Source of the DNA: Sulfurimonas sp. CG01_land_8_20_14_3_00_36_23
GTDB taxonomy: Bacteria > Campylobacterota > Campylobacteria > Campylobacterales > Sulfurimonadaceae
Assembly (NCBI GenBank): GCA_002781365.1
Contig: PETN01000023.1
Span: 1-49,829, forward strand
Direction: 5' to 3'
DNA length: 49,829 nucleotides
Both the position numbers and the translations under genes were made by a program. How positions within the stretch are numbered: position 1 is the stretch's first letter; each line of letters begins with the position of its first letter. A model generated the notes under the pieces. The model made no database searches and was not told the origin of the DNA. It worked only from the letters and a program-made list of their open reading frames with translations. Positions 18,023 to 24,369 of this stretch are shown one piece after another.

Positions 18023-19783
18023 TTAAATACTATTTATATGGTCTAAAAACTCTTGAGGTGGCTTATAACCAAATATCTTTTTAGCTTTTATCTCTTCTAA
18101 ATTTTCATCGAAAAAGAGAATTGCAGGTGGTCCAAATACTCCATATTTTTTAGATAACGCTTTCTCATCTGCACTATTTTTCGTAACATCTGCTTGAATC
18201 AGAACAAAAGAACTTAATGCATTTTGAACATCTGCATTAGAGAAAGTATTGTGTTCTAACTCTTTACAAGAGGTACACCAGTCAGCATAAAAATCTAGCA
18301 TTATCTTTTTGCCTTTATTTTTTGCCAAAACTGCATCTAACTCAGCAATAGAGTGCACTTTTGTGAAACTATTTGTTTTCACGCTTACAGAGCTAGTTGA
18401 AACAACACCTGCTGATGTAAATTTTTCTAATGGATTGAGTGGATTAGTTGCTCCACTTAATAAACCAAGCAACAAAGATGCACCTAGCATAAAGATAACT
18501 ACACCCAAGCCTTTAAACAGCGCGTTCCATGATCTTTTATCATCTTTCAGTGCTTCAAACACTCCAAGATAAACAGATGAGATGATTAATAGTAAAGCCC
18601 ATAAAAGCATTGAAATCGAATCTGGTAATATACGAGCCAACATCCAAATAGCAATAGCAAGCATGATAACACCAAATACTTTAGAAACAGTTGTCATCCA
18701 ACCACCAGGACGAGGCATAAATTTACCTGCTCCAATTCCCACAAGAAGAAGTGGTGCCCCCATACCTAAACTCATAACAAAGAGTGCCAATCCACCCAGC
18801 ATAGCATCACCTGTTTGACCTATATAAACAAGCGCTCCTGCCAACGGTGGAGCAACACATGGCCCAACGATTAATGCAGATAAAAACCCCATAACTGCTA
18901 CGCCTGCAAAACCACCTTTATTTCCAGCTTTGTTAGAAGTATTAGATAGTTTACTCTGTAAAGAAGAAGGAAGTCCAATTTCAAAAAATCCAAACATTGA
19001 GATAGCCAAGATAACAAAGATAGCTGCAAAAGCAGACAATACCCATGGATTTTGTAAAGATGCCTGAATGTTACCACCAAAGAGTCCAGCTAAAACACCA
19101 GCCATTGTATACGCCATACTCATTGCTAGCACATAAACAAGAGAGAGCATAAAACCTTTTCTTGCCGTCATCCCTTCACCTTGAGAAACGATGATAGATG
19201 AGAGAATAGGAATCATTGGAAAAACACATGGAGTAAGTGCTAAAAGAAGTCCAAATCCAAAAAATGTTAACAAGATAAGAGAGATGTTACCACTTTTAAA
19301 TGTATCCGTGATTGCATCTGTTTCAGAACCTGAGTTCGTAGTTTCATTTGCTACTACAGCAGATGCTTGTTCTAATTTTGATGCATCTATTTTAAGTGTA
19401 AACTCATTTTCTAAAGGTTCATAACATAAACCTTTCTCTGAACAACCTTGATACTTAACAACTGCAACTATCTCATCTGCATCACTGTTTTTTGTCAAAG
19501 GCATATCTAGCACTATCGACTTAGTAAACACTTGTTCGCCGCCATGATCTACACTTGCGGGATAGTTTATAGCACCTAAAACAATAGCACTATCTTTAAG
19601 TGAAATACTCAACTTATCTTTGTATAGATAGATAGATTCAGCCAACTCAATCTTCACTATTAGTTTGTTCTCTTTTACTTCTGCACTAGGTTTAAATGCA
19701 TCTTCTGGCATTAAAAAACTACCTGAGCCACCCAAGCCAAATAACGAAAAGTACATCGCTACTAAAATTAAAATATATCTCAT
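18023..19783 (-). CDS. dsbD: Thiol:disulfide interchange protein DsbD
   Basis: 586 residues with all three parts of full-length DsbD. An N-terminal signal and periplasmic alpha domain contain the Cys pair in QGCSEKGLCYEP. Eight membrane segments follow, with Cys in LTPCVFPMIP and VGPCVAPPLAG. The C-terminal thioredoxin domain has C503-T-S-C506. It passes electrons from cytoplasmic thioredoxin to periplasmic thiols. In this operon, with a TlpA-like protein, two c-type cytochromes and a lipoprotein ending in GGCGCR, its likely job is to keep the cysteines of these partners reduced (inference). Confidence 0.95.
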   Translation of the reverse strand: MRYILILVAMYFSLFGLGGSGSFLMPEDAFKPSAEVKENKLIVKIELAESIYLYKDKLSISLKDSAIVLGAINYPASVDHGGEQVFTKSIVLDMPLTKNSDADEIVAVVKYQGCSEKGLCYEPLENEFTLKIDASKLEQASAVVANETTNSGSETDAITDTFKSGNISLILLTFFGFGLLLALTPCVFPMIPILSSIIVSQGEGMTARKGFMLSLVYVLAMSMAYTMAGVLAGLFGGNIQASLQNPWVLSAFAAIFVILAISMFGFFEIGLPSSLQSKLSNTSNKAGNKGGFAGVAVMGFLSALIVGPCVAPPLAGALVYIGQTGDAMLGGLALFVMSLGMGAPLLLVGIGAGKFMPRPGGWMTTVSKVFGVIMLAIAIWMLARILPDSISMLLWALLLIISSVYLGVFEALKDDKRSWNALFKGLGVVIFMLGASLLLGLLSGATNPLNPLEKFTSAGVVSTSSVSVKTNSFTKVHSIAELDAVLAKNKGKKIMLDFYADWCTSCKELEHNTFSNADVQNALSSFVLIQADVTKNSADEKALSKKYGVFGPPAILFFDENLEEIKAKKIFGYKPPQEFLDHINSI

Positions 19784-19803: not shown

Positions 19804-20724
19804 TTACAAATTATTTAAATTAATAGAGTCTAGTTTTAAATCTCTACAATTGTTAAACGATATGTTGGAGCCTTTATCAATCGAAATCGTTGAAAAATTC
19901 AATCTTTTCGAAAAAGAACTCACATAAGCCAAATCTTTGTTAAACATAGCAGTGGCAAAGGCATCTAACATATCTATGTTAAATCCATTTTGGATTACTG
20001 TCATAGAACTATAGATATTGGATGACTCACCACTCTTTTTATTTAATATATGGTTATTCTCTTTTGTTTTTATAAATCTCTCATAATCACCACTTGTCGA
20101 GATTGAAATTGGCTCTTTAGATGTTTTGATATATCCTAAATTCCCTTCCGAGAATGGATCCCTTAAAGCTATAGTATAACTTTTTCCAAAACTTACTATT
20201 TCTCCACCAACATTAACCAAACTCTTTGTCGCACCATTTTGCTTCAAAAAAGATACTATTTTTTTAGCAACATAACCTTTGCCAATGCCACCTAGATCTA
20301 ATCGCATACCTTTTTTTGCTAAAAAGATACTATTTTCAGAGAGCTCAATGAACCTATAATCCACAAGCTCTTTTTGCTTGTCAATCATTTTTTTAGTCGC
20401 GACTTCCTGGTTTGAAAATCCAAAATGGTATGCTCCATGACTAAGAGCTCCCATGGTAATATCAAACTCTCCATCGCTTAATCTAGAGGCTTCTATACAT
20501 CTTTGAAAAAGTGCAATATCTTCATCGTTGCACTCTCTCTTTTCTAAACCCGAAGAAGCATTTATCTGACTTAGAAAAGACTCTTTTTTATACGCGCTGT
20601 ATCTATCTTCAAACTCTTTCGCCAAGCCGTAAGCTTGAAGCAAAACACTCTTTGAAACATTGGCACGAATGAGCAACTTCGTGCTCATAATATTTGCTTC
20701 TAATGCCTTTTCAAAAAGTGCCAC
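19804..20724 (-). CDS. apbE: FAD:protein FMN transferase (ApbE), no signal peptide
   Basis: Transfers FMN from FAD onto a Thr or Ser of target proteins. Family motifs are present: FDITMGAL, MRLDLGGIGKGYVAKK, VNVGGEI and DMLDAFATAM with the metal-binding Asp. The start is GTG at 20,724 with AAGG six bases upstream. The protein begins MALFEKALEANIMSTKLLI, so it has no signal peptide or lipobox, unlike most ApbE proteins, and should be cytoplasmic unless the start is wrong. It sits 8 bases after the DUF3570 gene, whose product carries a target-like motif. Confidence 0.9.
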   Translation of the reverse strand: MALFEKALEANIMSTKLLIRANVSKSVLLQAYGLAKEFEDRYSAYKKESFLSQINASSGLEKRECNDEDIALFQRCIEASRLSDGEFDITMGALSHGAYHFGFSNQEVATKKMIDKQKELVDYRFIELSENSIFLAKKGMRLDLGGIGKGYVAKKIVSFLKQNGATKSLVNVGGEIVSFGKSYTIALRDPFSEGNLGYIKTSKEPISISTSGDYERFIKTKENNHILNKKSGESSNIYSSMTVIQNGFNIDMLDAFATAMFNKDLAYVSSFSKRLNFSTISIDKGSNISFNNCRDLKLDSINLNNL

Positions 20725-20732
20725 TCTACGCC

Positions 20733-21854
20733 TTAAAATTCATAATCAACTTTTAAAGTTGTATATATCGCCTGTATATTACTGTCCCCATGCCAACTCT
20801 TAATATTAGCATTGTTGCTCGTTTGATATAAATCCACACTTGCCGTAAATTTATATTGACTCGTTGGCGACGGTTTATAGATAAATGGAATACCTAAATC
20901 ATAAGAGTCAAATGCGCTCGTACGATAATCGATAGCGAAATATGGATCAGTTGCGCTATAAGTTCCAAGCTCTTTTGAAAAATTTGCTTTACTTTGAGTA
21001 TAGTATCTCACTCTTATTCCTGAGGTTAGCTTAGAGTTAAATTCATGCATCCACTCTACATTAAGAGTATGAGATGATATATCCCAATCATCTGTGTAAT
21101 ATCTGTACGCATAGTTAATGCTATTTTCATCACTTAAAAGATTTACACCCTTCACAGCAAAAGCATCCCCTGACCTTGTGCTTGGGTACTTTTCAAACTT
21201 AGCAAAACCATCTTGTAAAACATAGTGATACGTTGATGATAGAAAACCTTCACTCCAGAGTTTTGAGTAAACAAATTGTATCGATGCGGTCGGGCTAATC
21301 AATTGATTGACTGAAATATCGATTTTTCCCTCTTTTCTACTATTGTTGGGCACTAAAACTCTATGTGTTACTGGACTCCATGTGTCATCTGACTGTGAAA
21401 TACCAATACCAACCGCAGTATTTTCCTCATTGAGTTGTCTCACATAGTTTAGAAAGATTGCTTTACCATCATAGTCATTTTCAGTTGAAAGATAAAATCC
21501 ACCACTTACCGCATTTTCTCCATCTTCATAAGCCATCAAAAATGTAGGAGCATATCTCATCTCATCAAAACCCTCTTTAGCAGAAGCACCAACAACTGTA
21601 TCCGCTATAACAGGGCTACCACCGTTTGTAATACTGGCAGCAGTAATAGCATCTATTCTCATTGAAAAACCAACTAAAAGATTTTTAGAGAGTGTTTTCA
21701 TAAGTGAAAATGTTGGCGAATAAACCGTAACGTCACTCGAGTCACTATAAGTATTAATACCTACAGAAGCACTATCTTTAAGACTCGAAGCATACGTTTT
21801 TAAAAATGGTGTTAGTAGCAAAATACCAACAAAAAATGATTTTATTACCTGCAT
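20733..21854 (-). CDS. DUF3570 outer-membrane protein with ApbE-target-like motif
   Basis: 373 residues from the ATG at 21,854, chosen because AAGGAGG lies six bases upstream; an alternative TTG is two codons earlier. A signal peptide ends near Tyr-Ala-Ser at about residue 22. The rest looks like an outer-membrane barrel (alternating aromatic strands, terminal VDYEF). Recognised as DUF3570. Near the N-terminus, D68-A-I-T-A-A-S74-I-T resembles the ApbE consensus Dx(x)(S/T)(G/A)A(T/S)xT, so Ser74 could carry covalent FMN. The ribosome site and start lie inside the end of the DUF4266 gene (10-base overlap), and apbE follows 8 bases later. Function of the family is uncharacterised to my knowledge. 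Confidence 0.82.
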   Translation of the reverse strand: MQVIKSFFVGILLLTPFLKTYASSLKDSASVGINTYSDSSDVTVYSPTFSLMKTLSKNLLVGFSMRIDAITAASITNGGSPVIADTVVGASAKEGFDEMRYAPTFLMAYEDGENAVSGGFYLSTENDYDGKAIFLNYVRQLNEENTAVGIGISQSDDTWSPVTHRVLVPNNSRKEGKIDISVNQLISPTASIQFVYSKLWSEGFLSSTYHYVLQDGFAKFEKYPSTRSGDAFAVKGVNLLSDENSINYAYRYYTDDWDISSHTLNVEWMHEFNSKLTSGIRVRYYTQSKANFSKELGTYSATDPYFAIDYRTSAFDSYDLGIPFIYKPSPTSQYKFTASVDLYQTSNNANIKSWHGDSNIQAIYTTLKVDYEF

Positions 21855-22060
21855 CCACAACCTCCTTGAAAGCTACTATCTCCGCCAGCTGAAGCTTCAC
21901 GAATTAAAAAAATGTGTCCCTCTTGTTCTGCACGTGCATCCACTGGACTTAGTCTCATTTTATCTTGAGCAAAATACTCTTTTTCGTAAGGCATAACACG
22001 CACCAAACGCTCAGAACATCCACTCAATAATAAAAGAGCAATTAAAACTAAATATTGCAT
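21845..22060 (-). CDS. DUF4266 small lipoprotein ending GGCGCR
   Basis: 71 residues. The lipobox LLSGCS makes Cys15 the lipidated residue. The middle matches DUF4266 (VMPYEKEYFAQDKM), and the C-terminus ends in QGGCGCR, the family's characteristic Gly/Cys tail. The CxC pair could bind a metal or form a redox-active thiol site at the outer membrane. The codons of this tail also supply the Shine-Dalgarno AAGGAGG for the DUF3570 gene, so the two products are tightly coupled. It starts 8 bases after the TlpA-like gene. Confidence 0.85.
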   Translation of the reverse strand: MQYLVLIALLLLSGCSERLVRVMPYEKEYFAQDKMRLSPVDARAEQEGHIFLIREASAGGDSSFQGGCGCR

Positions 22061-22068
22061 ATCTCAAC

Positions 22069-22563
22069 CTACTTTAATTTATTGATTTCTTGTTTTAGCT
22101 CTTCAATCTCTTTATTATTCAAACTTCCTACGATAACAAGTTTAATAACACCATTTTTATCAATCAAATACGATGATGGCATCGCAACTGCTCTATAAGC
22201 TTTTGGCAATTTTTTTGAAACATCGTGAAGAGAAATAAAAGGTGTTGCAAAGCCCACTTCACCCTCAACACTATTTAAAAACTTTTTAGCATCTGCTGGG
22301 TCTTTATCAATACTTACAGCAACGATTTTAAATCCGCTCTTATACTCTTTTTGAAGTTTAAAAAACTCTGGCATCTCTTCTTTACAACCGCTGCACCAAC
22401 TAGCCCAAAGATTAAGAAGAACTACTTCACCCTTAAAATCACTCATAGAGTAATTTTTTGAATTATCCAGCGTAGGAAGATTAAAAGCAACAGCTTTATC
22501 CCCCTCTGAAACACCTGCGAACAAACTTAACGCTAACGAGATTAATACTATTATTTTTTTCAT
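22069..22563 (-). CDS. TlpA/ResA-like periplasmic thioredoxin
   Basis: 164 residues with a signal peptide (MKKIIVLISLALSLFAGVSE). The redox site is WC57-S-G-C60 in LLNLWASWCSGCKEEMPEF, with the later cis-Pro region AMPSSYLID. Proteins of this family reduce disulfides of apocytochromes and other periplasmic partners and take electrons from DsbD or CcdA; dsbD is in the same operon. It lies between the cytochrome genes and DUF4266, so likely clients are the haem-binding CxxCH motifs and the DUF4266 cysteines. Confidence 0.92.
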   Translation of the reverse strand: MKKIIVLISLALSLFAGVSEGDKAVAFNLPTLDNSKNYSMSDFKGEVVLLNLWASWCSGCKEEMPEFFKLQKEYKSGFKIVAVSIDKDPADAKKFLNSVEGEVGFATPFISLHDVSKKLPKAYRAVAMPSSYLIDKNGVIKLVIVGSLNNKEIEELKQEINKLK

Positions 22564-22572
22564 GTTTTTTTC

Positions 22573-23172
22573 CTATTTACAATAACTTATTTGACCAGCA
22601 CTAATATACAAACGAGAAGTTGTTATACCATGGCATGTGTTACAAGCGATTTGATTCGTAGCATCCGCTGAATTTGTTATATCATAACTTGCCCCACTAA
22701 ATTTATGCACCGCTGTTGACTGAGCTAGATTGATACCTGAGACTCTATCTACGACTCTCATAAGATAATCTCCAGTTGGAGGAGTTGAGTTAGCAACTCT
22801 AGCAAGTCCAAAGATATTTCCCTGTCCCTTATAACCTTTCGAGTTTGCATCATAGGAGTCAGCGGTTGAATAAGCAACACTAAAATCTGTATTGCGTACA
22901 AACTGAAGTGCCAAATCAGCATTACAGCTATCAGTTAACTCTTGTGAGTTGTTAAAATCTGTAGCAGTTGCGTTTTTAAACAGAGTTCCCGCTAAAACAA
23001 GCTTTCTATCTGTTGCTAAGTCCACATTATGACAAGCTAAACAATCTCTACCTTGAAAGTGCCAGCCGCTAGTTGTAGCAGCTGTAGCACTTCCTCCCTC
23101 TTCTCCCTCTTCACTACATCCACTCAAAAGAAAAGATGTAGCTAACAGAAAGAGCAATGTGTAATATTTCAT
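22573..23172 (-). CDS. Dihaem c-type cytochrome lipoprotein
   Basis: 199 residues. The lipobox LLSGCS makes Cys19 the lipid anchor. Two haem motifs are present, C44-L-A-C-H48 and C177-N-T-C-H181. Two further Cys (83 and 198) could form a disulfide. An acidic Gly/Glu linker follows the anchor. The N-terminal part around the first haem resembles the first haem region of the neighbouring tetrahaem protein (a short CxxCH then a segment with L-x-A-G-T-x-F), suggesting common origin. It is expected at the outer or inner membrane, depending on Lol sorting, as an electron carrier. Confidence 0.85.
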   Translation of the reverse strand: MKYYTLLFLLATSFLLSGCSEEGEEGGSATAATTSGWHFQGRDCLACHNVDLATDRKLVLAGTLFKNATATDFNNSQELTDSCNADLALQFVRNTDFSVAYSTADSYDANSKGYKGQGNIFGLARVANSTPPTGDYLMRVVDRVSGINLAQSTAVHKFSGASYDITNSADATNQIACNTCHGITTSRLYISAGQISYCK

Positions 23173-23181
23173 TTAACCTCC

Positions 23182-24369
23182 TTAGTTGTTTTGAGCACCA
23201 AGCTCAATCCATTTCTTAATATCAAGGTAATCTTGACTCGTAGCAGTAAAGACTGTTCCTCCATTATGGGAGATAGTATTGGTTGCTTTTTGTAAAAGAG
23301 CAGAACTTGTTGGCGTTGTTGTATTTACTTGTGCAACTACACTAGTATAATTTCCTACAAGGAATGTTCGTCCACTTGTACTAGAGTGACAAGCATTACA
23401 TTTATTTGTTAATATTGTCGCTACATTACCTGAATAAGTAGAAGTCGTCGGTGCTGTTGCCGTTGTACCTGTTACAGTACCTAGTGCTGCACCACCTGCT
23501 ATCCAAGCTCTAATTGTTGTATATCTTGTTTCAGAAGTAACTAAAATAGTACCGCCACTATGAGAAGTTCCAATTGCTTTTGTTAACAAGAGTGAATTAT
23601 CTGGTGATGTAGTATTAACATCTGCAACTATATTGTTATACGATGCCGTTACATTTCCATCTGAACTATAGAGTACTGTACCTGTTGTTCCACCAGCGTG
23701 GCAAGCAGTAGTGCTACAATTTGCAACAATAATAGGCAATACATCCGCTTGAAAAACTCCTGCAGTTACTGTACTTGTTGTACTCGTACCAGTTCCTGTG
23801 CTTCCTGCTGTTGCTCCAGCAAATGAAGTAATTCTTCCTGGTGCACTGTTTGTTCCAGTTTCTGTATGACAAGAGTTACAATCTAAATGTGTTCTAGTAT
23901 TGTGTGAATTTGTAGCAGAAGCATTTACAACTGTAAAAGTATTATCTACAACCTGACCTGTAAAGTCATAAGCACTAGTCAATGCAGGTGCATCACTACT
24001 CTTAACATAGGAGTTTCCGCTTCCACGTTTAGTTTTGATTCTATACGTAATTTTTTGTCCTGTGCTTAAGAGTGCTTGCAACGAATAGCCACTTGCAGCT
24101 TGATTAGCTGAAGATGTGTTAAGTTGATTAAAAACTGTTCCAGCAGATAAAAGATAATCTTCTCTTCCGTTTGGTCCATGACATACTGAACATGCTACAC
24201 CTTGATTATGAACAGTTATTGAAGATGACGTATTTGTACTATTATAATTGTCATCATAGTTTTCATCATCACTATGACTATCATCACCGCCATCACTACT
24301 CGTGCTTGTTGAACCACATCCTACCAACATAAATGCTAGTAATAAGCTTAATAAGAATTTTTTTCTCAT
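23182..24369 (-). CDS. Tetrahaem c-type cytochrome lipoprotein
   Basis: 395 residues. The lipobox MLVGCG makes Cys18 the lipid anchor, followed by an acidic Asp/Ser linker. Haem motifs are C60-S-V-C-H64, C164-N-S-C-H168, C218-S-T-T-A-C223-H224 (a CX4CH form) and C324-N-A-C-H328. The C-terminal half is a tandem repeat of about 85-100 residues, each unit containing one haem motif followed by a distal segment ending W-I-x-x-G-A, like planctomycete-type cytochrome domains. It is the first gene of the operon after the regulator, with a direct-repeat operator candidate in front. Confidence 0.85.
   Translation of the reverse strand: MRKKFLLSLLLAFMLVGCGSTSTSSDGGDDSHSDDENYDDNYNSTNTSSSITVHNQGVACSVCHGPNGREDYLLSAGTVFNQLNTSSANQAASGYSLQALLSTGQKITYRIKTKRGSGNSYVKSSDAPALTSAYDFTGQVVDNTFTVVNASATNSHNTRTHLDCNSCHTETGTNSAPGRITSFAGATAGSTGTGTSTTSTVTAGVFQADVLPIIVANCSTTACHAGGTTGTVLYSSDGNVTASYNNIVADVNTTSPDNSLLLTKAIGTSHSGGTILVTSETRYTTIRAWIAGGAALGTVTGTTATAPTTSTYSGNVATILTNKCNACHSSTSGRTFLVGNYTSVVAQVNTTTPTSSALLQKATNTISHNGGTVFTATSQDYLDIKKWIELGAQNN

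Follow-up and report, generated by a model that had tools for sequence, protein, structure and literature searches.

The locus examined here raises the question of how a DUF3570 protein with a predicted export signal could acquire covalent flavin from an FMN transferase (ApbE) whose adjacent gene encodes no export signal at all. The window, i.e. the whole 49,829-nt stretch of DNA that was analysed, carries these genes in a cluster whose features all lie on the minus strand. Its order of transcription is: a lipoprotein with three CXXCH motifs and one CX4CH (23182..24369), a lipoprotein with two CXXCH haem motifs (22573..23172), a TlpA/ResA-like periplasmic thioredoxin (22069..22563; domain match and CSGC sequence), a small DUF4266 lipoprotein with C-terminal GGCGCR (21845..22060; PF14086 and translation), the DUF3570 protein (20733..21854), ApbE (19804..20724) and a full-length DsbD (18023..19783; DsbD_N, DsbD_TM and thioredoxin domains, NCBIfam DsbD above cut-off). 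The five genes from thioredoxin to DsbD are contiguous by their Pfam matches, the two haem-motif lipoproteins keep the same order in relatives L024, L025 and L026, and the C-terminal CGC-type motif of DUF4266 is kept in 86/86 sequences. DUF4266 and DUF3570 share 10 bases (21845-21854), the latter starting within the codons for the CGC of the former, and this pattern recurs in relatives with an MRMQ or MWMQ start, which suggests coupled translation. The named relatives nearest to the window DUF3570 come from Sulfurimonas and other Campylobacterota; none was found in the viral contigs searched. Some 2-3 Mb genomes of the phylum Bacteroidota have several DUF3570 genes in a row (e.g. G1043:C45:32553-40488).

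The window ApbE matches PF02424 (E 1.3e-53, 182.6 bits) and aligns to 13 solved FMN transferase sequences (best E 4.3e-27). Its GTG start at 20724 falls 8 bases past the DUF3570 stop, an in-frame stop stands five codons (ILRRR) 5' of that GTG, and the conserved Met of the core comes at position 13, only 12 residues after the start. With the frame closed and the core Met this near, no signal peptide is possible whichever start codon is used, and neither the signal peptide nor the lipobox that marks exported ApbEs was found. The earlier note had given both the spacing and the missing export signal correctly, and had offered three ways out: of these, a misread start is excluded by the closed frame, a second ApbE acting outside finds no support since the only other ApbE found in the window genome is also leaderless, and flavinylation before export is the one left, comparative sequence evidence speaking in its favour. 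The assembly, with completeness rated 100%, has one DUF3570 cluster and two ApbE matches; no exported ApbE was found in it. A search of the same genome for an FMN_bind protein, considered as an alternative substrate, gave no match, and that candidate was rejected.

The DUF3570 protein matches PF12094 (E 6.6e-41, 140.9 bits against a Pfam cut-off of 25) and reads from an ATG at 21854 to a stop at 20733. Its first ~24 residues (21783..21854, cleavage site placed by eye) look like a signal peptide, in line with the export stated before, and an N-terminal hydrophobic stretch is present in 53/55 DUF3570 relatives whose linked ApbE is leaderless. Two ApbE-type motifs are there, with predicted acceptors Ser74 and Ser91: site 1, D68-A-I-T-A-A-S74-I-T (21627..21653), and site 2, D85-T-V-V-G-A-S91-A (21579..21602). 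In an alignment of 70 of the 74 full-length proteins (L092 and L101, duplicates of L018 and L021, are excluded from DUF3570 counts), position 74 is Ser or Thr in 65/70, position 91 in 69/70, and position 68 is Asp or Glu in 63/70; position 88 of site 2 is Val in the window protein and Ser or Thr in 66/70. The pattern [ST][GSA]A[ST] occurs 116 times in the 2304 residues of the site-bearing loop of the 70 proteins and 6 times in the 21469 residues of mature sequence outside it, loop 4 not counted, and is absent from the loop in three proteins. Among window ORFs of at least 100 aa, DUF3570 is the sole match to [DE]xxx[GA]A[ST]x[ST]. The interpretation in the earlier note thus stood as to motif, conservation and leaderless enzyme; it had missed the second site, the barrel described below and the published flavinylation of the family.

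A third candidate site, Dxx[ST][GS]A[ST], appears in the predicted β7-β8 loop of 12/70 aligned proteins, all from Campylobacterota-type loci, and also in L018 and L020-L023. The carriers, with divergent Campylobacterota DUF3570, are L018, L020-L023, L046, L047, L056, L062-L065, L069, L072, L077, L095 and L106.

That published work, the only one naming DUF3570 or DUF4266 in the literature searched (Meheust et al. 2021, PMC8238504), describes in its available text DUF3570 as an ApbE substrate with two conserved [ST]GA[ST] motifs. The Chlorobium luteolum protein was flavinylated by its cognate ApbE when truncated constructs of the two were expressed together in E. coli, and lost its flavin only when both serines were changed, S-to-A tests included; most of the DUF3570 was in the cell pellet. 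Coexpression of such constructs suggests that ApbE accepts DUF3570 under cytosolic conditions. Within that source, covalent FMN on DUF3570 is reported for C. luteolum only. By its motifs and this relative, we infer that the window DUF3570 very probably carries covalent flavin, presumably FMN. The flavinylation motif of DUF3570 is therefore known biology, and the pairing of a leaderless ApbE with an exported substrate is a real and, as shown below, widespread puzzle.

The answer that we regard as probable is that the cytosolic ApbE flavinylates the unfolded DUF3570 precursor, and that Sec and BAM then bring it to the outer membrane, where it would act as a redox protein of the cell surface supplied by DsbD, the TlpA-like thioredoxin and DUF4266. 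The cytosol already contains FAD, and an ApbE working there does not depend on export of this cofactor. The leaderless enzyme would move FMN from cytosolic FAD to Ser74 of the unfolded precursor, and probably to Ser91 as well; the flavinylated chain would be exported by Sec and folded by BAM into an outer-membrane barrel of 16 strands, its flavins in loop 2. Electrons may then pass from cytosolic thioredoxin through DsbD and the TlpA-like thioredoxin to the CXC tail of DUF4266, for which redox cycling of the CGC motif has been suggested in the available text of PMC8238504, and go on to an acceptor that is extracellular or a haem; the upstream haem lipoproteins, whose order is kept as noted above, may be partners. 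Passage of the flavin through Sec appears feasible on size, since the open pore reaches up to ~2.4 nm with rigid adducts, larger than FMN, according to the part of a review available (PMC6028853). The compartment, the timing, the surface exposure and the electron route are all deduced here from genes and models.

The barrel part of this scheme comes from an AlphaFold2 model of the window DUF3570, which has 16 long strands (mean pLDDT 88.8, pTM 0.84). All 50 of the Foldseek matches listed are outer-membrane proteins (barrels or barrel-bearing transporters), as are all 50 of the matches listed under VIA. The C-terminal residue is Phe, and is F, Y or W in 65/85 relatives; the protein thus combines an even strand number, barrel matches and a C-terminal aromatic BAM signal. 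In outer-membrane barrels both termini lie in the periplasm, which would put the β3-β4 loop with both acceptors (residues 71-97, 21564..21644) on the extracellular side. A model of a relative with three motifs (mean pLDDT 87.2) agrees in topology: sites 1 and 2 fall at the β3 end and in the β3-β4 loop, and site 3, predicted to be extracellular too, lies where the β7-β8 loop ends. We would accordingly place the DUF3570 flavin sites on the extracellular side, with the flavins of loop 2 predicted to sit either on the extracellular face or inside the mouth or lumen of the barrel. After BAM insertion such sites would lie beyond the reach of a periplasmic enzyme, which would give a reason for early modification.

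The exposure of the flavins is the part of this scheme with a competitor of some weight, one that overlaps it on timing and differs on where the flavins end up: the loop may sit in the barrel lumen, or its sites be reached from the periplasm, making DUF3570 a periplasmic redox module mounted on a barrel. Loop 71-97 is poorly modelled, with pLDDT below 50 over residues 77-94, and the partners DsbD, TlpA-like protein and DUF4266 all belong to the periplasmic side. However, given periplasmic termini, the loop is extracellular in both models, and the 11 residues that never vary in the alignment (E125, D127, G203, P224, Y250, Y253, D255, D256, W257, R283 and Q287) are all modelled no more than 5 residues from strand ends on the extracellular side. 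We consider hidden flavins rather unlikely.

How common the leaderless arrangement is bears on the proposed cytosolic modification of DUF3570. Genome contigs were searched with the DUF3570 alignment, and linked ApbEs were extracted by profiles built from those loci; an ApbE was scored as having a leader if a hydrophobic nine-residue window followed any possible start, a hydrophobicity rule of our own and not SignalP. In the first set 63/72 DUF3570-linked ApbEs are leaderless, compared with 2/51 other ApbEs (50 from 49 genomes, and the second of the window genome). The 49 genomes derive from 50 of the 58 contig loci in which an ApbE is linked, L080 being left out. Without curation the linked ApbEs of this set stand at 61 leaderless and 11 with signal, and the others at 4 and 47. 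DUF3570 is present in 29/398 Pseudomonadota and 118/395 Bacteroidota genomes, and a draw from these two phyla (100 loci scanned) brought in 50 further linked ApbEs that are leaderless and 19 that bear a signal, for a combined 113/141 leaderless and 28/141 with a signal peptide. All linked ApbEs of the Pseudomonadota draw are leaderless, the exported ones of this second draw belonging to Bacteroidota-phylum loci; overall, the 28 come mostly from Flavobacteria-like and Ignavibacteria-like loci, with some gammaproteobacterial ones. Five cases were curated by hand: L036 and L064 were counted as leaderless because the hydrophobic stretch falls within the DUF3570 overlap, L188 and L192 as exported, their core being preceded by a hydrophobic stretch where there is no canonical start, and, in the second set, L259 as leaderless. 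Rows whose ApbE match begins past model position 30 were dropped (L156, L159 and L212, all with a hydrophobic N-terminus), as were the partial L079 and L037.

On an ApbE tree of 160 of the 192 rows (a second tree has 87 rows) the leader state changes at least four times, and leaderless ApbEs fall into three groups: (i) one in Bacteroidota, among exported DUF3570-linked enzymes; (ii) the Campylobacterota/Aquificota group of the window; and (iii) a large group spanning several phyla. The sister of the window group (support 99) is a set of ten exported ApbEs from the same kinds of genome; close to seven of these lies a small ORF with a motif of the ITGAT/ISGAT type. The two leaderless enzymes among the other ApbEs, namely the second of the window genome and another from a genome of the Mangrovimicrobium type, are both placed inside the large leaderless group, which is mostly DUF3570-linked. 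A single clade of all leaderless ApbEs was rejected (AU p 0.00013), so the leader changed more than once; holding the window group and the large group together was not rejected (AU p 0.197), and that leaderless ApbEs arose three times separately is likely, though short of proof. Since the leader state changes only ~4 times on the tree, the very small Fisher p values for the counts above are not independent evidence, and an independent-pairs test on leader state is without power.

The motif itself differs between two sorts of Bacteroidota loci. Beside leaderless ApbEs the DUF3570 reads DHYTSASSD (L070-L105), and beside exported Flavobacteria-type ApbEs it reads SAYTSASSS, with the Asp lost (L273-L306). 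The residue at position -6, Asp or Ser, thus tracks the ApbE compartment in Bacteroidota, as seen in two groups only, which is not proof.

These counts also bear on a second alternative, that ApbE acts outside after all, either exported without a classical signal or through an undetected exported ApbE that flavinylates DUF3570 in the periplasm. Characterised ApbEs are mostly periplasmic lipoproteins whose location is needed for function, according to the available part of a review (PMC12052999), and DUF3570 clusters with an exported ApbE do exist; their 28 signal-bearing enzymes imply that periplasmic flavinylation of DUF3570 presumably works too, with modification before insertion presumably being their route. 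Yet in 9/49 genomes the single ApbE match is the leaderless DUF3570-linked one, and these, like the window genome, yielded no exported ApbE, so an exported ApbE is not a general solution. Leaderless groups this widespread, with a single origin rejected, are also hard to square with a need for export, and we hold action outside to be quite improbable.

Another possibility is that the ApbEs of leaderless clusters modify some other, cytosolic protein, DUF3570 being a degenerate, unmodified relative. The second leaderless ApbE of the window genome (L028:7868-9234, contig C1 near 71.9-73.2 kb) starts 5 bases after the gene of an EF-hand protein that lacks a signal and has QSQSGAS close to its N-terminus, and by this example leaderless ApbEs may have cytosolic substrates. 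Against this for DUF3570, the flavinylation sites are kept in the DUF3570s of leaderless clusters within an otherwise variable loop, and ApbE-DUF3570 adjacency is conserved across phyla; there seems very little chance that DUF3570 has been abandoned as a substrate. Homologues of the EF-hand protein occur in 15/81 genomes of the family; among 20 such loci the N-terminal [VI]QxQS[GS]AS is kept in 6 (L313-L317, L328) and an ApbE adjoins in 4. The EF-hand protein is thus a possible new cytosolic ApbE substrate.

Finally, gene starts are often wrong in general, but a misannotated apbE start with a signal peptide encoded further upstream can be dismissed, barring frameshift or sequencing error, by the stop before the GTG and by relatives whose frame is likewise closed. 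Among the linked ApbEs, the frame closes within 24 residues of the core Met in 42/72 of the first set and 27/69 of the second.

Cytosolic flavinylation of the DUF3570 precursor may extend well beyond this locus. We would give an even chance to the broader proposal that DUF3570s form a class of outer-membrane proteins flavinylated in the cytosol, passing Sec with FMN attached and displaying surface flavins as a haem-free or haem-assisted outlet through the outer membrane, with more than one ApbE lineage having changed its leader in serving them. In the literature examined, as far as it was available, flavinylation of exported proteins has been described as a periplasmic or extracytosolic step performed by an exported ApbE; a leaderless enzyme with an exported substrate makes Sec passage of FMN-bearing proteins directly testable. 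If the proposal is true, the flavinylation step needs no FAD export, and in many environmental bacteria DUF3570 becomes a candidate carrier of electrons to the cell surface. DUF3570 as a barrel, its ApbE as usually leaderless, and cytosolic flavinylation of an exported protein are unstated in the available text of PMC8238504, PMC12052999 and PMC11334425 and in the literature searched, a scope outside which preprints and most subscription papers fell.

The closest known systems are the clusters of Meheust et al. 2021 (PMC8238504), where ApbE, DUF3570, DUF4266, a thioredoxin-like protein and DsbD likewise lie side by side and DUF3570 has two motifs; in its available text that study describes extracytosolic ApbE, whereas a leaderless ApbE, a barrel and a third motif go unmentioned, and the words barrel, porin, cytoplasmic and intracellular do not occur in its main text. 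Cytosolic ApbEs have been noted for cytosolic fumarate reductases, and in the part available (PMC12052999) the cytoplasmic ApbE of Klebsiella with its soluble fumarate reductase shares with our case the lack of a signal on the enzyme and, as proposed here, its action in the cytosol; there, however, the substrate stays cytosolic, whereas DUF3570 has a signal-like N-terminus and a predicted barrel. The FMN_bind proteins NqrC and RnfG, served by periplasmic ApbE, share the phosphoester FMN chemistry and a Dxx[ST]GA[ST]-type motif, but differ in fold, in their inner-membrane/periplasmic location and in having an exported ApbE, and the window genome yielded no FMN_bind match. In Mtr-type porin-cytochrome conduits an outer-membrane barrel is proposed to pass electrons outward, as it is here for DUF3570; unlike those conduits, DUF3570 has no decahaem in its barrel, and would carry covalent flavins instead.
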